7,994 nt of DNA. Source: Ruminiclostridium sp. Lineage in GTDB: Bacteria; Bacillota_A; Clostridia; Oscillospirales; Ruminococcaceae. The notes under the pieces are model-generated. The model was given only the letters and a program-made list of their open reading frames with translations. It was not told the DNA's origin and searched no databases. Position 1 is the stretch's first letter. Each line of letters opens with the position of its first letter. The position numbers and the translations under genes were made by a program. The stretch covers positions 1-7,994 of the forward strand of contig JAFZOA010000541.1 of assembly GCA_017550775.1 (NCBI GenBank), written 5' to 3'. Positions 1-7,994 of this stretch are shown here, piece by piece.

Positions 1-3000
1 CAAAGCTATGAGCTTTTTCTGCACGTTGGTTCCCGCGCCCATCTTCTGAGTAGAGCCGATAAGCACCCTTATGTTTCCGCTCTTGACCTTGCCGAATAGT
101 GCGCTCTTCTGCTGCTCGGTCTCGGCTGAATGGACGAATGCTATCTCTTCCTCGGGAATACCCTTTGCAATGAGCTTTGCCTTGAGGTCGTCATACACGT
201 TGAAATGCCCATCGTTTTTTGGAGTGGACAGATCGCAGAATACGAGCTGTGTCGAGCGGGCTTCCTTTGTGCGTTCCCATATCTCGTAAACGTTATCCGC
301 GCAGGCAGTTACCTTTCCGGTGTCGCTGTCGGGGAGAAGCTCGTTTATAAGCCTTTGGTCGAGCGCGAGCTTGCGTCCATCGTTCGTAATGCACAGCATA
401 TTGTCTTCGCTGGAATTGACCATGCGGTTGCGAACTTTCTCGGCTCGCTCTGACAATCCCTTAACCATCTCTTTCTGCTGTTCGGACGGTTTCAAAGCAA
501 CGTTGTGATAAACCGCCTTCGGAACGGGCAGATCGAGCATATCCGCCGTCTGTACGTCAGCGACCTCCTTGAACATACTCATGAGCTCCGGGAGGTTATA
601 GAACTTGGCAAATCTCGTCTTGGCTCTGTACCCGTTGCCCTCCGGCGCGAGCTCTATTGCCGTTACCGTCTCGCCGAATGTGGAAGCCCATGAGTCGAAG
701 TGGATCAGGTCGTTCTTTTCAAGAGTATGGTATTGCAGATACTTCTGCATGGTGTACATCTCGACCATGCTGTTCGATATCGGAGTGCCTGTCGCAAAGA
801 CAACGCCTCGTCCGCCTGTCAGCTCGTCGAGGCAGCGGCATTTCATGTAAAGGTCGCTCGACTTCATAGCTTCCGTCTGCGCGATGCCGCCGACGTTCCT
901 CATCTTTGTAAACACGGCGAGGTTCTTGTAGTAGTGAGCTTCGTCGATAAAGAGCCTGTCAACGCCGAGCTCCTCGAAGGTTACGACGTCATCCTTTCTC
1001 GACTGATCGTTAAGCTTATCGAGCTTCTGCCTTACCGCCTTTCGAGCTTTTTCCATCTGCTTGATAGTAAAGTTTTCGCCGCGATTGCGCTTAGCCTCGT
1101 CGATACCTTCAAGTATTTCCTGCTCCTGCTTTTGAAGGATGGAAATCTGCCTTTCGACAGACATGGGGATCTTTTCAAATTGAGAATGACCGATTATCAC
1201 CGCATCATAGTCGCCCGTGGCTATTCGCCCGCAGAATTTCTTTCGGTTCTTGGTCTCAAAGTCCCTCTTGCTGGCGACGAGTATGTTCGCGGAGGGGTAG
1301 AGCTGAAGATACTCCGACGCCCACTGCTCTGTCAGATGGTTAGGAACGACGAAGAGGCTCTTTCGGCAAAGTCCGAGCCTTTTCATCTCCTGCGCCGCCG
1401 CAACCATTTCGTAGGTCTTGCCAGCGCCGACGACGTGAGCAAGCAGGGTATTCCCGCCGTAGAGTATGTGAGCGATGGCGTTGACCTGATGGGGACGAAG
1501 GGTGATCTCGGGGTTCATTCCGATAAAGTTAAGGTGGCTTCCGTCATATTCACGCGGTCTTGTCGAATTGAACTTTTCGTTGTAGAGCTTGGTCAGCCGC
1601 TCGCGTCTGTTCGGATCCTTCCATATCCATTCGCTGAAAGCCTCCTTGATGAGCTGCTGCTTGCCCTGCGCGATGGCGGTCTCCTTCTTGTTCAGTACGG
1701 GGACTTTCCTTCCGTTATCGTCCTCAACGTAGTCGAAGACACGGACGTCGCGCAGATTAAGAGTCTCCTCAAGTATCTTGTAGCCGTTTACTCTGTCCGT
1801 GCCGTATGTGTTACAGCTCTTGACGTTGTACCTGTCGTTAGATTTGCCCTCGATGCTCCACTCGCCGGTGTAGGCGGCAAAATGAACGTGGATATTCCTG
1901 CGCATCCAATAAGAGGTGCCGAAAAGCTCCCACATGAAATCGTTGATGTCATCGACAGGGAGCCATGTAGAGCCGAGTCTTACGGAGATTTCGCTTGCGG
2001 ATAAGTCCTTGGGCATGACCTGTTCCAATGCCTTTACGTTTACGGAATAGGCTTCGGGATCGAGCTCCGCGCTCTTCTTCGCAAGAGCCAGCTTTGAGCG
2101 GATATTGCCCGAGAGGTATTCGTCAGCCGGTATGTACTTCTGTTCGCCGCTGTTCTCGTATCCGAACAGGGGATTCAGGAATATGACTCCCTTGAGCTCG
2201 TCGGCTATGGCTTCCTCGGTCTTACCCGTGAGAGAGCACATATACTCCATATCGACCTTTGTCTTTTCCGCGAGGGACAGGGCAAGTGCCTCCGACGCGG
2301 TATCGACGCTTGTGACGACAACCCTCTGGCGGATAGTCCGCTTCGAGAACATATCCGCTTTGCCGACGTATTTGCCGTCGTCGTCGAATCTTTCGAGGGA
2401 GGTCAGCAGGTAGTAGGAATTGTCCTGATTGAACGCGGAGCTGTTGGCGCGGGAGTTGATATAGCCATACTTCTTGATGAACTCGTCATACAGCTCGTTC
2501 AATTCCTTTTGCTTTCCCGTGATTTCTTCATCGGGATAGTCGTCCATCTGGTACTCGATGAGCTCTCTAACACAGTCGCGGAGCTTTATCATGCCCTTGA
2601 TTCGGTTCGCGGCGGTAACTGATACGTCGCATTCATCCATACGGCTGTTGATTCGGTAGTAAACTTTCCCGTCAACAACGGTGTAGGAGAAGTTCCTTAC
2701 GCTCGGGTCGGCGGGGATGCTCTTATCCTCGTTCTCGCTGATGGCGTCCTCGAACTCGACCTCGGGTATCTCCGCGTGTATGTTCTGTACGGCTGCGTTC
2801 AAGCCTTCTTCGAGGCTCTGATCCTCGTAGGGGATGCAGGCGGGCTCCGGACCGAAGGGACCGCTTTTCAGCTTCATTTCGCCGACGATCATATCGGGAT
2901 TGTCGATGAAGTATTGGTTCATCGTGATACCGTTCTCGTCTTTATTGAGATGCACCCAATCGGGCTCTGCGTCGATAAGCCTGTCGCGCTTTTGCAGGAA

Positions 3001-6000
3001 GATTATGTCCGTTGTGACGTCCGTTCCCGCCGCGTCCTTGAATGTGTTGTTCGGAAGCCTTATCGCTCCCAAAAGATCGGCTCTCTGGGCGATGTACTTC
3101 CTTACGGTCGGATCAGCCTTATCCATCGTAAAGCGCGATGTGATAAAGGCCATGACGCCTCCGGGACGAACCTTGTCCAAGGTCTTTGCGAAGAAGTAAT
3201 CGTGGATATTGAAATTGAGCTTGTCATATCGCTTATCGGAAACCTTGAACTGACCGAACGGCACGTTTCCGACCGCCGCGTCGAAGAAGCTGTCGGGAAG
3301 CTCGGTACTCTCGAATCCCTGCACGGCGATATTGTTCTTCTGATAAAGCTGCTGCGCAATCCTTCCTGAAACGCTGTCAAGCTCCACGCCGTAGATTTTC
3401 GACTGGCTCATGCTGTCGGGAATCAGCCCCATGAAATTGCCGATGCCGCAGGATGGCTCCAAAATGTTGCCGTTCTTGAAGCCCATATTCTCAAGAGCCT
3501 TGTAGATGCTCCTGATGACTACGGGAGGGGTAAAGAACGCCGTCAGCGACGATTCCCTCGCTGAAGCGTATTCCTCATCGGTCAGCATCTTTTTAAGTTC
3601 ACCGTAATGGGGATTGGTCTCTTCACAGAACTCCGAAAGCCCGCCCCAACCGACGTAATCGGAAAGGATACTCTGTTCAACGGTATTTGCGAGCCTGTGT
3701 TCACCCTCCAGCTTATGAAGCAGCGAGATCGCTGTTATATTGTGGTAGAACCTTTCAAGAGGTGTACCGACGCCTATCTTGTCGTCCTTAATAGTAAAGT
3801 TCGTGCGGTAGTCGGACTTGATCTCGGGATAAAGGATATGCGGCGCAAGATCTCTCTTTGTTTTCTTTTGCGCCGGAGGTGCGAGCTCTGCTTCCGGCTT
3901 TGCGGTTTCTTCGTTCCGAATTATCTCTTCCGCTTTCTTTTCAGCCTGCTCAAGCTGCCGGTCGGTGTAGTCGGTAAGCTCGTTGAAATCGAGATTTTCG
4001 AGAGCGCCGCACATTTCATTCAGGTCTAAGTACAGCCATCTGTCAACGAGTACGCCCGCGATGTATCGGTCAATGGAATAATCGACGAGATTGGCGTTGA
4101 CCTGCGTTTCAAGCCCCATATCTCCGACTGTCGTATGTGCTATGCCGACCGCGCTGAGATCGGAGAAGTCCGCGTCCTCCGAGAACTCCTCTTGGCAGTA
4201 TTCGTTTATGAGACGTTTCGCTCTGTCGAGATCGGTTTCAGACTCTACGGATTTCTCAACGGGTATTTCGACCTCGGTCCCGGTGGGGCCGATGACAGCA
4301 TTCTCTATCTCGACGAGGTATTTATCGTTCAGCGGGTTCTCGGCGATCTTCCGCATGAACTCGTCTTTCGGCATTTCCTCCGTGAGAAGCGGGAACTTAG
4401 GATCAAAAAGAATAACGGGATCGCCAAGCTCGGTGATCTCGTATTCCTTCGTGCCTATATAGACCGGATCTCCCAAAGAGAAACGGTACTCTTTTTCGGG
4501 CTCGGGAGGCGGATTGAGTTCTTCTTCAGTCGGTTCAAAGGGCTTTGCAAGCTCTCCGTCGAGCTCGTCGAGAACCGCCTGCGCTCGTTCCGTCAGGTGA
4601 GTGTCCTCGGTTATTATCCGATTCAGAACCTCGCGCATCGCGGGAAGAATAAACACATCGGGTTGATTTCTCCATCCCTTGATGACCCTTTCTCCCATTC
4701 CGAAGCAGCGACCATAATCCTTGGTCGTCGCCTCCTTGAAAAGAATATCGGAGTTTCCGAGCTGTTCCTCAAAGTCGTTGAAATCGTGAACGACCAAATT
4801 GAACCTTTCGGCGATCCCGTTTCGCGTGTTCCGCTTTTCCCGCTCGCGCTTGTATTCGGGATATGCTTCCTTCTCCTTTGGGGTAAGATACCTGTCGGCA
4901 GCGATCAGTTCTCCGATTCGTTTTGCGGCTTTGTTCCAGGGAATCAGTATGGTAGCTTCGCCCTTTTTGAGTTTTATACCCTTACTGTCATGCTCCTCCC
5001 AGTAGGCTGAACCGGGGATGGCGTCAGAACGTCCGCCAATACCGTACTCGTTTTTAAGAAACACGATGTTCTTATCGGTCGATTCCTGCTTCTCAAACTG
5101 CTCGTATATGCGGAGCTTTCCCTGACTAACTCCGCTTCCTCCGGCGAGCACATAGTCTATCGCCGCCTGCGGGATGGTAAACTCATTCTTCCGTTCCTTG
5201 ATCCTCTGTTCAAGGAACGAGATCTGATCGTCAACGGAGGGGAGGTCATGCTCCTCGGGGGAGAGCCAAGTGTCAAGAAGTATCTGTCCGTAGATGCAGT
5301 CCGCAACGCTCCACCACGGGAGATAGTCCTCCTTGTCGCGCTTTAAGTAGCTTCCGCGCCAGATGTGAAGAACGTCCTGATATGCGCGATATCCCGCTCG
5401 GTCTCTGTTTTCGAGAAACTGCTCTACAAAGGTATTGTCAAAATAGCTCCTAATGAAATCACCACGCTCCTTTCGGCTCTCGTGAGCCTCAAAAAACGCG
5501 GCGATCTCTTTTCTGTGTTTTCTCAGAGCATAGCTGGTTCTGAGCAGTTCGTTTTTTGCGTCCGGGTCGTAGTAGTAGGGTATTTCACTTCGCTTATTGA
5601 AGTCGTGCCCACTTAACTGTAGACCAGCTCCGTGAGGACTATCTCCTCCGCCTGAGCCTTCAGTGAGTTCATCATCCGTACCCACTCCATCTGATTCTTC
5701 GCTTTCAGGCTCTCGTTCACTCCGGCTCTCTTCGCCAGCTCGTTCGTCAGCCTCTCGACCGTCTCCGTCGCTTCGCGGTCGATCCTCTCCAGCTCGTCCT
5801 TCAGCTCGCCTGTCATCAGCATCGCCGTGTAATACGGTCTCCGTTCGTTCTTGAGGTACTGTTTGCGCAATATCCCATATTTCCCAATCTTCGGTGCTTC
5901 GGGGGGCAGAAGATTCGGGAGGAGATAGTCGCCCTCCTGTCTGTAGGTCAGTTCCATGTTCATCGCTCCTTTCGGTGTTTTTGTTTATGCCTTCATTATC

Positions 6001-6789
6001 GTCTTTCTTTTCGGCTTTTGCAATTATGCGATTTTCACGCTCGTCCTTCTCGACACTTCTGACCGTAGTCTCGATTTCCCTAAGTATCATCTCGGAAATA
6101 TCGCTCACAGCGTCGCCGATCACGCTCAAAGTCCTCGGCGTATCGAAGTCCGAAATGCAGATAAAATCGCTCGGTCGATAATATATTTTTGCGTCGATCC
6201 CACAGCGGGTGAGGACTTGATATGCGATACTGTTCTCAAGGAGTGCCTTGAACCTCTCCTCAAGCCCGGTATCGTCATATTGAGAAATACCGCTCCCGCG
6301 TGATACACTTTTTAGATTCTCGATGTAGTCCTCGGCGTTATCCTGCACGACCTGGCGGACGATCTCTCCGATTGCGGCCTCGAACACGGTCTTGTTTTCG
6401 ACCTCTCCGAAGTTGTCCTCAAGAGCCGCAAGAACGGCGTCCTTGTATTCGGGTCTGTACCTCCAGAGCTTCACCTCGTACCCGTATCGGCTGTTGGTAT
6501 CGGATATGTCGAATACATGGCGGAGCCTGTAAACGCTGCTGTCATCGACAAGCAGGGCGATTCCCTTCGTGCCCTTGTTCACCCAGCGACCGAGCTTGTT
6601 CCAAGTCTCGATCTCCGCGCAGGCTGTGGCATCGGGCTTTTGAGCGTAGATTAGTACTTGATCCTTGAAACGGTACTTGTAGTTGTTTGCGGCAGTCCTT
6701 AAATACTCCATGTATCTTTCGGGTGACGACGCGATCTCGTTGGACTTGAAGTTATAAAGCTCCGAGGTAAGTATGTATTTGCTCGGCAT
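1..6789 (-). CDS. Giant ArdC-like / N6-DNA methylase / SNF2-DEAH helicase fusion protein (3' end outside window)
   Basis: Open for 2263 codons from an ATG at 6789 to the window edge. The start follows an AGAGGTGA ribosome site (6795-6802) and lies 5 nt after the upstream stop. Residues about 20-135 resemble the ArdC N-terminal single-stranded-DNA-binding region (LIYAQKPDA, then W-x-x-LGR-x-V-x-KG-x-KGIALL). Residues 276-395 are a low-complexity D/E/G/R/S linker that overlaps tnpV. Residues about 403-620 and 764-826 are helical accessory domains of the large-polyvalent-protein type, followed by a charged helical stretch (about 940-980). The methylase core has YVGWGGL (1045-1051), AFFTPP (1084-1089), SAM motif I LEPSCGIGNFMG (1110-1121) and NVPFG (1175-1179, a variant of NPPY). 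The helicase has Walker A VGAGKT (1787-1792), DEAH (1949-1952), ATGTPISN (1999-2006), the start of the second RecA lobe (QLVFCDLSTP, 2181-2190) and motif V-like GSTQKMGAGTNVQ (2245-2257). Motif VI would lie beyond base 1. Such proteins are common in clostridial conjugative elements; DNA protection or remodelling during transfer is inferred, not shown. Confidence 0.93.
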   Translation of the reverse strand, partial: MPSKYILTSELYNFKSNEIASSPERYMEYLRTAANNYKYRFKDQVLIYAQKPDATACAEIETWNKLGRWVNKGTKGIALLVDDSSVYRLRHVFDISDTNSRYGYEVKLWRYRPEYKDAVLAALEDNFGEVENKTVFEAAIGEIVRQVVQDNAEDYIENLKSVSRGSGISQYDDTGLEERFKALLENSIAYQVLTRCGIDAKIYYRPSDFICISDFDTPRTLSVIGDAVSDISEMILREIETTVRSVEKDERENRIIAKAEKKDDNEGINKNTERSDEHGTDLQTGGRLSPPESSAPRSTEDWEIWDIAQTVPQERTETVLHGDADDRRAEGRAGEDRPRSDGDGREADERAGEESRSEREPESEESDGVGTDDELTEGSGGGDSPHGAGLQLSGHDFNKRSEIPYYYDPDAKNELLRTSYALRKHRKEIAAFFEAHESRKERGDFIRSYFDNTFVEQFLENRDRAGYRAYQDVLHIWRGSYLKRDKEDYLPWWSVADCIYGQILLDTWLSPEEHDLPSVDDQISFLEQRIKERKNEFTIPQAAIDYVLAGGSGVSQGKLRIYEQFEKQESTDKNIVFLKNEYGIGGRSDAIPGSAYWEEHDSKGIKLKKGEATILIPWNKAAKRIGELIAADRYLTPKEKEAYPEYKREREKRNTRNGIAERFNLVVHDFNDFEEQLGNSDILFKEATTKDYGRCFGMGERVIKGWRNQPDVFILPAMREVLNRIITEDTHLTERAQAVLDELDGELAKPFEPTEEELNPPPEPEKEYRFSLGDPVYIGTKEYEITELGDPVILFDPKFPLLTEEMPKDEFMRKIAENPLNDKYLVEIENAVIGPTGTEVEIPVEKSVESETDLDRAKRLINEYCQEEFSEDADFSDLSAVGIAHTTVGDMGLETQVNANLVDYSIDRYIAGVLVDRWLYLDLNEMCGALENLDFNELTDYTDRQLEQAEKKAEEIIRNEETAKPEAELAPPAQKKTKRDLAPHILYPEIKSDYRTNFTIKDDKIGVGTPLERFYHNITAISLLHKLEGEHRLANTVEQSILSDYVGWGGLSEFCEETNPHYGELKKMLTDEEYASARESSLTAFFTPPVVIRSIYKALENMGFKNGNILEPSCGIGNFMGLIPDSMSQSKIYGVELDSVSGRIAQQLYQKNNIAVQGFESTELPDSFFDAAVGNVPFGQFKVSDKRYDKLNFNIHDYFFAKTLDKVRPGGVMAFITSRFTMDKADPTVRKYIAQRADLLGAIRLPNNTFKDAAGTDVTTDIIFLQKRDRLIDAEPDWVHLNKDENGITMNQYFIDNPDMIVGEMKLKSGPFGPEPACIPYEDQSLEEGLNAAVQNIHAEIPEVEFEDAISENEDKSIPADPSVRNFSYTVVDGKVYYRINSRMDECDVSVTAANRIKGMIKLRDCVRELIEYQMDDYPDEEITGKQKELNELYDEFIKKYGYINSRANSSAFNQDNSYYLLTSLERFDDDGKYVGKADMFSKRTIRQRVVVTSVDTASEALALSLAEKTKVDMEYMCSLTGKTEEAIADELKGVIFLNPLFGYENSGEQKYIPADEYLSGNIRSKLALAKKSAELDPEAYSVNVKALEQVMPKDLSASEISVRLGSTWLPVDDINDFMWELFGTSYWMRRNIHVHFAAYTGEWSIEGKSNDRYNVKSCNTYGTDRVNGYKILEETLNLRDVRVFDYVEDDNGRKVPVLNKKETAIAQGKQQLIKEAFSEWIWKDPNRRERLTKLYNEKFNSTRPREYDGSHLNFIGMNPEITLRPHQVNAIAHILYGGNTLLAHVVGAGKTYEMVAAAQEMKRLGLCRKSLFVVPNHLTEQWASEYLQLYPSANILVASKRDFETKNRKKFCGRIATGDYDAVIIGHSQFEKIPMSVERQISILQKQEQEILEGIDEAKRNRGENFTIKQMEKARKAVRQKLDKLNDQSRKDDVVTFEELGVDRLFIDEAHYYKNLAVFTKMRNVGGIAQTEAMKSSDLYMKCRCLDELTGGRGVVFATGTPISNSMVEMYTMQKYLQYHTLEKNDLIHFDSWASTFGETVTAIELAPEGNGYRAKTRFAKFYNLPELMSMFKEVADVQTADMLDLPVPKAVYHNVALKPSEQQKEMVKGLSERAEKVRNRMVNSSEDNMLCITNDGRKLALDQRLINELLPDSDTGKVTACADNVYEIWERTKEARSTQLVFCDLSTPKNDGHFNVYDDLKAKLIAKGIPEEEIAFVHSAETEQQKSALFGKVKSGNIRVLIGSTQKMGAGTNVQKKLIAL
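5613..5957 (-). CDS. tnpV: TnpV-family transposon-encoded protein, nested in +1 frame inside the giant gene
   Basis: A complete 114-aa protein lies wholly inside the giant gene on the same strand. The first base of each of its codons is the second base of a giant-gene codon. It shows the TnpV pattern: N-terminal ELTYRQEGDYLLPNL, then GKYGILRKQYLK (25-36), YYTAMLMTGEL (42-52), an amphipathic helix (53-80), and LKAKNQMEWV then AEEIVLTEL (84-93 and 103-111). Its length matches the family (about 110-120 aa), and TnpV is known from Tn4451-type clostridial elements, where its function is not established. I chose the ATG at 5957 rather than the in-frame ATG at 5963, because AAAGGAG (5966-5972) sits 8 nt upstream of 5957 but only 2 nt from 5963. 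The protein is well-ordered and helical, while the giant frame here is low-complexity, so this frame looks like the selected one. Expression as a separate protein is inferred from the ribosome site. Confidence 0.8.
   Translation of the reverse strand: MELTYRQEGDYLLPNLLPPEAPKIGKYGILRKQYLKNERRPYYTAMLMTGELKDELERIDREATETVERLTNELAKRAGVNESLKAKNQMEWVRMMNSLKAQAEEIVLTELVYS
5966..5972 (-). promoter_or_regulatory. Internal Shine-Dalgarno for nested tnpV
   Basis: The minus strand reads AAAGGAG here, 8 nt before the ATG at 5957. It lies inside giant-gene codons for T-E-R-S (272-275), so it is an internal ribosome entry site within a reading frame. It decides the tnpV start and is the main sequence evidence that the nested frame is translated. 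Confidence 0.7.
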
Positions 6790-6794
6790 ATCTT

Positions 6795-7163
6795 TCACCT
6801 CTCATTGTCCCGGTCTCGCAGAGGAGGGCAGCGCTCCATGTATTCCTTCAAGGTCGAAGTCGTCCCCTCATAGTTCCAATCGGTCTCTTCGTCGATAAGG
6901 CGATACGGTCTGCTGTTCGGCGTATCCCTTACGAGCCTTATTGGTCTGTTCGATATGAGAGTACCCCAATGGTTGACGAGGATGCACTCCGCAATCTCAC
7001 AGGGAATACCCTGCTGATCGTCGTCGTGCCTGACCTCGTACATGAACATACCTTTCGGGAGCGTGCTCCTGTCACAACGGGCGCAGGTGAAGAGCATAGG
7101 CTTATCGAATACCGTTACGTTCTCGAACTCCTCAGTACGAATATCTGTTCTGTATCCGCTCAT
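6795..7163 (-). CDS. LPD28-like small accessory protein
   Basis: A 122-aa soluble protein with no signal peptide or membrane segment. Residues 1-80 match my memory of the LPD28 (large polyvalent protein-associated domain 28) family: YRTDIRTEEFENVTVFDKPMLF (4-25), then PKGMFMYEVRHDDD (36-49) and VNHWGTLIS (63-71). The C-terminal 40 residues are charged and less characteristic, with Y-x-x-ID-E and a W/Y-rich turn. The ATG at 7163 overlaps the stop of the upstream gene (ATGA), and GGGAGG lies 10 nt before it, so translational coupling is likely. The gene ends 5 nt before the giant gene, and its last codons contain that gene's ribosome site. LPD domains occur beside or within giant polyvalent proteins of phages and conjugative elements; no biochemical role is established. 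A CARC pair (27-30) could bind metal, but nothing else supports that. Confidence 0.75.
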   Translation of the reverse strand: MSGYRTDIRTEEFENVTVFDKPMLFTCARCDRSTLPKGMFMYEVRHDDDQQGIPCEIAECILVNHWGTLISNRPIRLVRDTPNSRPYRLIDEETDWNYEGTTSTLKEYMERCPPLRDRDNER

Positions 7164-7705
7164 CGTGCGACCGCCTCCCTATGATTAACCTGCGGGAACT
7201 CCCAGCCGTAGACCTTGCCTATCTCGTCGCCGAGCCTGCGGGTTATGCGCGTTATGTCCGTTCGCGTAGCCTTCCCTTCGTAGATCTTCCATTTGAGGTT
7301 TTCGATCTGTTCGTCGCTCACGCCATCCTTGTACGCGCGATACAGATAATGATTTGTCCCATCATGATGTACAGCGTCACATCGAAGGTCGCCGTTTTTA
7401 TCGACAAACCAAGTCGAGTAGTCCGTATCGGAATACAGACAGTCGCGGATGTTTCCGCTTTCGATCTCCTTGTAGCCGGAGAAACGACCGTTCCAAAGTC
7501 CGAGATCGCCTATTATCAGAATAGGTCTTGAGAGCTGTATGTTCAGGTTTATCCGCTCGTCGTCGAGATAGTCTCCGTTTATGTCATACATGAGCGCGAC
7601 GCGCTCTTCTTCCGTCTTTTCCGGGTACTCGCTTTCGAGATCCGCTCTCCAGTCCTCGTAGTCCAGGTCGTAATTCGACCAGATCAGATGATCACTTTTT
7701 TCCAT
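7160..7705 (-). CDS. Conserved 181-aa acidic protein of unknown function, mobile-element associated
   Basis: I do not recognise a named domain. The protein is soluble and acidic, with conserved-looking aromatic/acidic blocks: LIWSNYDLDYEDW (7-19), a helix TEEERVALMYDIN (31-43), DYLDDERINLNIQ (45-57), a hydrophobic strand then DLGLWNGR (62-74), NIRDCLYSDTDYSTWFVD (85-102), and CDAVHHDGTNHYLYR (109-123). A basic C-terminal part (ATRTDITRITRRLGDEIGKVYG, 146-167) could form a helical nucleic-acid-binding or partner-binding segment. From memory, closely similar hypothetical proteins recur in clostridial mobile elements next to LPD28 and giant methylase-helicase genes. The frame is open upstream to an ATG at 7756, but that start has no ribosome site and reads through the hairpin. 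The ATG at 7705 has AAAGGAG 4 nt before it and is preferred. It is the first gene of the three-gene run. His-Asp-rich HHDG is suggestive of metal binding but unproven. Confidence 0.8.
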   Translation of the reverse strand: MEKSDHLIWSNYDLDYEDWRADLESEYPEKTEEERVALMYDINGDYLDDERINLNIQLSRPILIIGDLGLWNGRFSGYKEIESGNIRDCLYSDTDYSTWFVDKNGDLRCDAVHHDGTNHYLYRAYKDGVSDEQIENLKWKIYEGKATRTDITRITRRLGDEIGKVYGWEFPQVNHREAVAR

Positions 7706-7709
7706 TTTT

Positions 7710-7716
7710 CTCCTTT
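7710..7716 (-). promoter_or_regulatory. Shine-Dalgarno fixing the start of the 181-aa gene
   Basis: AAAGGAG on the minus strand ends 4 nt before the ATG at 7705. It sits only 7 nt after the 3' arm of the upstream hairpin, which leaves no room for a promoter between hairpin and gene. Confidence 0.75.
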
Positions 7717-7723
7717 CCAAATG

Positions 7724-7753
7724 AAAAAGCACCTGACGGATCAGATGCCTTTT
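7724..7753 (-). terminator. Intrinsic terminator-like hairpin (possible attenuator)
   Basis: On the minus strand, AAAAGGCATCTGA (7753-7741), loop TCCG, and TCAGGTGCTTTTT (7736-7724) pair over all 13 positions, including two G-T wobbles. The 3' arm ends in five T residues. On the plus strand the two wobbles become A-C mismatches, so the minus-strand transcript is the natural one. It lies 20 nt after the stop of the helix-turn-helix gene and 18 nt before the start of the 181-aa gene. It may simply end the upstream transcript, or it may attenuate read-through into the downstream run. Confidence 0.75.
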
Positions 7754-7773
7754 CACTTATTGTTTTGTTGAAG

Positions 7774-7994
7774 TTATGATCCTGCTGCGGAGACGATCCC
7801 CGATTTTACGGGGAACGCAGGATCGCTCTTGGTCATTGACAACAGTCTGCAAGCCGCGCCTTCCGGATGATTCCTTCCTGCTTCCCAAGCCTCGACGGTT
7901 TTGACGGAAACGCCGATATACTTGGCAAAAAGGACTTGGGTCATTCCCGTGCTTTTCCGTATTGTTCTTATCTCATCGGGAGTAAAGGAATCAA
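7774..7994 (-). CDS. XRE-family helix-turn-helix regulator, antitoxin-like (5' end outside window)
   Basis: The last 72 residues and a TAA stop are visible; the start lies beyond base 7994. The visible part opens with FTPDEIRTIRKSTGMTQ, then LFAKYIGVSVKTVEAWEAG, which is the classic XRE fold: Q-x3-A then GVS-x2-TV-x2-WE-x-G, with the recognition helix at about visible residues 29-38. A short tail (HPEGAACRLLSM) closes the domain, as in YiaG/NadS/HigA-type small regulators. Such proteins are often the antitoxin of a RelE/HigB-type pair encoded just upstream, which would lie outside the window, so the antitoxin role is inference. The gene is separated from the downstream run by 68 nt containing a terminator-like hairpin. 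Confidence 0.85.
   Translation of the reverse strand, partial: DSFTPDEIRTIRKSTGMTQVLFAKYIGVSVKTVEAWEAGRNHPEGAACRLLSMTKSDPAFPVKSGIVSAAGS
7778..7824. repeat. Nested inverted repeats in the 3' end of the regulator gene
   Basis: The outer perfect 8-bp arms are GATCCTGC (7778-7785) and GCAGGATC (7817-7824). Inside are perfect 6-bp arms TCCCCG (7797-7802) and CGGGGA (7809-7814) around a 6-base loop. They lie within the last codons of the helix-turn-helix gene. There is no T-tract, so this is not a terminator by itself. It could be an RNA structure, a protein-binding site, or chance. Confidence 0.4.

Follow-up and report, generated by a model that had tools for sequence, protein, structure and literature searches.

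Known copies of TnpV, the family PF14198 with its prototype in Tn4451, are free-standing transposon genes, some of them located beside recombinases, and for TnpV of Tn4451 a role as an Xis-like excision factor has been proposed, as cited in the accessible part of PMC3158075. Conjugative elements encode polyvalent proteins that combine an adenine methylase and SWI2/SNF2 dyad on one chain, with an ArdC-N-like N-terminus among their architectures (Iyer et al. 2017, accessible part of PMC5512222), and the main text of that article, as far as it was accessible, contains neither TnpV nor the word "overlapping". Among mobile elements, a gene wholly contained in another is known from Tn5053, whose ardD lies antisense within tniA (accessible part of PMC3533173). 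We found no published description of tnpV inside giant polyvalent genes; our search covered the subscription literature thinly, and prior notice is possible.

In the window, i.e., the whole 7,994-nt stretch of DNA analyzed here, a giant polyvalent gene contains a complete tnpV on the same strand and in the +1 frame. The locus comprises the following features, listed in the direction of the giant gene:

6795..7163, minus strand: LPD28-domain ORF; its TGA stop shares bases with the candidate GTG of the giant, as GTGA
1..6798, minus strand: giant polyvalent ORF, 2266 aa, open to the window edge, with its 3' end outside the window; GTG 6798 and ATG 6789 are both candidate starts; domain order ArdC-N-like domain, linker, N6 adenine methylase, SNF2/ResIII helicase
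6034..6711, minus strand: conserved N-domain of the giant (ArdC-N-like), search profile A2
5972-5966, minus strand: putative Shine-Dalgarno (SD) sequence AAAGGAG of tnpV, 8 nt ahead of the ATG; in the giant frame part of the ERS motif
5613..5957, minus strand: nested tnpV, 114 aa, +1 relative to the giant; coordinates include the TAA stop
4609..5607, minus strand: next conserved giant block (HDFN..RSEIPYYY...), profile A1, which resumes directly after the tnpV stop

The giant carries both halves of the dyad typical of conjugative-element polyvalent proteins on one chain, with 37.3 bits for N6_Mtase (Pfam cut-off 20.4) and 35.1 bits for SNF2-rel_dom (cut-off 24.9). Its N-domain scores 21.3 bits for ArdC-N, slightly below the cut-off of 22.6, and the Listeria homologue of this domain exceeds the cut-off with 27.0 bits. 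The GTGA overlap suggests translational coupling of the LPD28-domain ORF with the giant. No recombinase was found among the Pfam matches of the five window proteins scanned, and an Rfam scan of the window returned zero matches. Upstream of the operon lie a 198-aa ORF without Pfam match (7160-7756) and the end of an HTH gene (7774-7992) with weak MqsA/NadS-type matches below cut-off.

The nested tnpV is part of a same-strand ORF at 5613-5963 and is read from the ATG at 5957, and the offset of 6798-5957 = 841 places it in the +1 frame. It matches PF14198 along the entire profile (positions 1-111 of 111) with 130.8 bits, where 27 is the cut-off, and is embedded in the giant rather than free-standing beside a recombinase as in Tn4451. 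Its open length alone is little proof of a gene, because long chance ORFs also occur: an antisense ORF of 434 aa is likewise open at 700-2004 of the window, and the Cohnella relative has further +1 ORFs of 92-142 codons. The features that exceed chance expectation are its family identity, its conserved place and frame, and the selection pattern. Comparative analysis establishes, at the level of sequence, a conserved place, frame and start signal and selection on the TnpV frame, and we regard it as very likely that the locus is truly dual-coding, with one mRNA from which both the giant polyvalent protein and the internal tnpV would be translated.

The occurrence of the nested gene was assessed in giants collected without reference to TnpV, counted as distinct N-domain places of at least 25 bits with at least 700 nt open past the domain. 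Among 127 such giants from Clostridia, Bacilli and Tissierellia, 124 have a TnpV-like ORF at the same place in the +1 frame, and in no giant did TnpV match in any other frame. The suggestion of the first-pass annotation that the arrangement is old and widespread is supported. The count leaves aside loci found via TnpV (L038-L096) and 11 loci with fewer than 700 open nt beyond the N-domain. The underlying A2 searches covered 291 genomes of one class (78 matching), 299 genomes of the phylum (22 matching) and plasmids, and the N-domain places were fetched in part, those left including G064, G079 and G252 (frames of more than 1,000 aa, all below 37 bits). By set, with cross-set duplicates kept, the proportions were 32/32, 69/71, 8/8 and 17/18; the last set, the phylum sample, was obtained after the claim had been formed, and its 17/18 therefore constitutes a test of it. 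Many of the genomes surveyed are metagenome assemblies, and since the loci are related, these counts are not independent events.

Most of the nested ORFs (114/124) reach at least 27 bits in a TnpV profile that was itself built from matches in the fetched loci, and ten are weak, at 16-26 bits. An independent PF14198 check of eight plasmid nested ORFs placed six above the cut-off and L191 (24.8 bits) and L193 (16.2) below it. The plasmid hosts are Cohnella, Virgibacillus, Listeria, Enterococcus, Streptococcus (two), Anaerococcus and Ruminococcus; in a ninth plasmid locus, from Aerococcus, the nested ORF is intact and the giant frame stops at 436 codons. Three giants were scored as misses: L156, with a +1 ORF of ~138 codons that plainly resembles that of L149 but falls below threshold; L238, a very distant giant with an N-domain of 29 bits; and L146. 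The latter combines an N-domain of 155 bits with a different linker that has no tnpV-like ORF, perhaps a loss of tnpV. Both frames are broken in L136, with a TnpV match limited to profile positions 1-45 and a giant frame that closes ~320 nt beyond the N-domain. Shorter ArdC-N ORFs other than these giants had TnpV in 0/14 cases.

When species genomes were scanned with the block that follows the linker (A1), 37 loci were obtained. All 36 with upstream sequence (L030 has none) carry the +1 TnpV-like ORF, which is cut at the contig edge in L025 and L026, and in each of them the giant frame runs through this ORF without a stop up to the limit of the contig. None of 16 candidate stretches for the C-side block in IMG/VR viral contigs was confirmed. 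The first 760 residues of the giant have 3,102 relatives at E ≤0.001 among 7,992 scored, of which the best 120 were listed and a part was checked for tnpV. Distances between TnpVs and between N-domains are correlated (r 0.857 in 109 loci; maximum of 500 permutations 0.145), indicating co-inheritance.

In the overlap, TnpV codon positions 1, 2 and 3 coincide with giant positions 2, 3 and 1. We compared 86 pairs at 75-97% nucleotide identity from 86 full-length, closed TnpVs with an open giant frame (L106, with one giant-frame stop, was excluded). Differences per TnpV position 1, 2 and 3 were 0.136, 0.107 and 0.263, and those per giant position in the N-domain 0.177, 0.124 and 0.400. Within the overlap, pN/pS was 0.30 in the TnpV frame and 1.42 in the giant frame, compared with 0.26 in the N-domain of the giant; the TnpV frame lay below the giant frame in 86/86 pairs and in 23/23 disjoint pairs (72-97% nucleotide identity). 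The first-pass annotation had proposed to ask whether TnpV shows less nonsynonymous change than the giant frame, and over the overlap the TnpV frame is indeed conserved and the giant frame is not.

Simple pN/pS is biased in overlapping genes (accessible part of PMC7531306), and the giant-type frame was therefore also examined in standalone TnpVs, in which it has no known coding function. Its pN/pS was 1.32 in nested and 1.52 in standalone copies; the giant linker is therefore nearly free as a sequence. In a sliding comparison of 36 giants (37 pairs), numbered from the N-domain over ~2,100 giant codons, pS in the giant frame is 0.12-0.17 inside tnpV (codons 251-364), 0.27-0.30 at its edges and 0.43-0.72 elsewhere. 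Purifying selection in the embedded frame is thus accompanied by synonymous constraint in the host frame, the combination by which embedded genes are recognized. No second dip of pS was seen along these codons, so a second hidden gene is not suggested.

How the arrangement arose is a question separate from dual coding, as a fusion or insertion origin competes with an overprinting origin and not with the dual-coding reading. We give an even chance to an origin in which an ArdC-like gene, tnpV and a methylase-helicase gene were fused with tnpV out of phase, the route put forward in the first-pass annotation, or in which an element carrying TnpV inserted and was then trimmed. In favor, the linker consists almost entirely of SD plus tnpV, and in Streptococcus, IMEs that carry TnpV integrate into the snf2 genes of ICEs (accessible part of PMC9815147). 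Against this, the single place and frame in the sampled giants point to one ancient event rather than to recurrent insertion, and the expected relatives with N-domain, tnpV and helicase as separate genes did not turn up: none of 20 short ArdC-N places (L200-L219) had TnpV in the fetched bases. The other origin, in which TnpV was born in the linker of the giant and the transposon tnpV of Tn4451 type represents later escapes, is possible but rather less probable; the nested copies hold the widest TnpV diversity sampled, at one place and in one frame.

Phylogenetic analysis was done with one row per 85% cluster. In the quick tree, a starred branch joins the standalones and 74 nested rows, apart from 9 divergent nested rows. 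This tree needed 6 label changes, interleaving nested and standalone copies, and had made several escapes a candidate; after the four long-branch rows L196, L197, L198 and L165 were dropped, standalones as one clade were not rejected by the AU test (p 0.61). The tree holding the standalones together was 8.28 log units better. A second candidate, a fossil of descent from nested copies in the form of stop depletion in the giant-type frame (28/35 standalone clusters versus own-codon shuffles), was removed by the control, since giant N-domains (67/83) and neighbour ORFs (25/35) show the same depletion.

TnpV was found in 106/291 genomes of one class, the N-domain in 78 and both in 67. Some standalone TnpVs adjoin recombinases and others lie between ordinary genes. 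In one genome (G004), four related standalone tnpV genes (L038, L045, L051, L067) are located among apparently ordinary chromosomal genes, with no recombinase recognized among the longest ORFs listed there. Among the 34 full-length TnpVs assigned to the standalone class, the giant-type frame contains 1-15 stops in 31. The other three have none there; two of them, L011 and L019, are in fact nested copies truncated at a contig end, which leaves L067 as the only genuine exception.

The giant frame behaves differently in the nested copies. It has no stop in 86/87 full-length nested TnpVs (the exception is L106), whereas the remaining frame has 6-26, and shuffling of the copies' own synonymous codons gave on average 2.43 giant-frame stops with a mean P(0) of 0.107. 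Order-promoting residues make up 12% of the linker versus 35% of the N-domain (73 loci), and once GC3 is taken into account, nested copies have a smaller fraction of them than standalones do in this frame (regression coefficient -0.09, t -12, a t value that is too large because the rows are related). The linker fits closely around the gene, with a median of 85 nt from the N-domain end to the tnpV start (68 loci) and of 5 nt from the tnpV stop to the next giant domain (29 loci). Judged from these patterns, the linker is in effect the gene, and as a protein it would mainly stay open and hydrophilic. The picture of a disordered linker overprinting a structured protein has to be modified, since beyond being open and hydrophilic the linker is nearly free in its protein sequence.

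The distinct linkers seen in the best-listed giant relatives have a recognizable common start and are mostly of one length. A linker signature TDL-x-TGGRL, mentioned in the first-pass annotation, proved real: a strict TDLxxGGxL-type pattern is found in 25/119 listed relatives, with related forms in other linkers. This motif is the out-of-frame reading of the SD and MELTYRxEGDYL, that is, of the SD plus MELTYRQEGDYL.

Could tnpV be an ordinary gene between two others, with N-domain and helicase made as separate products and the open giant frame incidental? The almost unconstrained linker residues in the giant frame would agree with this, as would L106, L107 and L192, where the giant frame is closed in or shortly after an intact TnpV, be it by assembly error or real decay. 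We nevertheless consider it improbable, given the 86/87 copies without a giant-frame stop, the downstream domain that follows in the giant frame a few nucleotides past the tnpV stop, and the greater hydrophilicity of the giant frame relative to its counterpart in standalones of equal GC3.

An SD match of 5-7 bases precedes 81/88 nested starts at a median spacing of 8, compared with 36/1,038 ATGs (3.5%) in other frames of the N-domain under the same best-of-candidates rule; when the nearest ATG alone was considered, 79/86 nested starts had an SD. SD scoring was restricted to placeable starts (88 nested, 16 standalone), and 5/16 standalone TnpV starts have an SD of at least 5 bases. The nested gene thus has a translation start signal of its own, and the earlier claim of a second gene under selection, on the same strand, in the +1 frame and with its own SD, is borne out by the PF14198 match, pN/pS and SD conservation.

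Programmed frameshifting from the giant, yielding an ArdC-N/TnpV fusion without initiation of its own, would suit the shared strand and the constant +1 offset, but the conserved, strong and regularly spaced SD favors internal initiation over frameshifting, and standalone TnpVs are separate proteins, which makes a frameshift product highly improbable. That only the giant is a gene, and the TnpV frame a relic that is not translated or a side effect of constraint on the giant, is hardly credible, since in the overlap it is the giant frame that changes much like a dead frame while TnpV is under purifying selection with a conserved SD, even if databases tend to carry one of the two and, in our case, the window's giant but no TnpV marked as its own among the 120 relatives listed.

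In the dual-coding reading, TnpV is most likely made by internal initiation on the mRNA of the giant. Ribosomes coming from the giant start would read the stretch as an open, hydrophilic linker of ~115 residues, and ribosomes entering at the internal Shine-Dalgarno would make the 114-residue TnpV, which would be available early, without completion of the multi-kilobase giant.

The predicted structure of TnpV (pLDDT 92.5, pTM 0.71) consists of a short hairpin and five helices (26-38, 40-49, 52-78, 82-87 and 89-112). Comparisons of fold and sequence gave no meaningful match to solved structures and none that would bear on a likeness to lambda Xis. The mobilizable 47-kb plasmid pLIS49 carries a nested copy, and its gene table (such tables may be incomplete) contains two proteins of recombinase families as well as transposition genes of Tn3 and IS type, and no entry is named an integrase. 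An excisionase role for nested TnpV is less likely because nested copies are also found on plasmids such as pLIS49, and excision is unlikely to be a general role. More tentatively, TnpV might be a small helical protein that assists DNA transfer, entry or establishment and is produced early on the transcript of the giant.

Existing annotations seem to miss nested tnpV often because gene finders keep one of two overlapping frames. The gene table of Cohnella lists TnpV and lacks the giant, and that of Listeria lists the giant and lacks TnpV (tables can be incomplete). In the Cohnella herbarum plasmid (L190, 7884-14144), an open giant frame of ~2,086 codons is absent from the gene table, which includes the nested TnpV and an antisense ORF. 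This one-of-two pattern fits gene callers that forbid long overlaps. The window's giant is present in the protein database (P0121); of the best 120 TnpV relatives listed, 100 belong to clusters in which no contig reaches 2 kb, so that a whole giant would not fit.

The near-universal presence of the nested gene among the sampled giants of a large mobile-element family offers replicated evolution for studying how two frames share one sequence, and illustrates that a linker can be a gene. It also suggests that a conserved protein of conjugative elements is missing from many annotations, and a knockout of or insertion in these snf2-type genes may hit tnpV too.

Compared with known systems, the giant matches the conjugative-element polyvalent proteins described in the accessible part of PMC5512222 in its methylase and SWI2/SNF2 dyad, and its N-terminus resembles ArdC-N. 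The nested gene agrees with the PF14198 family in sequence, length and full-profile match, but is embedded out of frame, in contrast to the free-standing transposon copies. As with ardD in tniA, a complete gene lies inside another gene of a mobile element; however, while ardD is antisense according to the accessible part of its description, nested tnpV is read from the same strand in the +1 frame and encodes a family-level protein conserved across the giants of a phylum.
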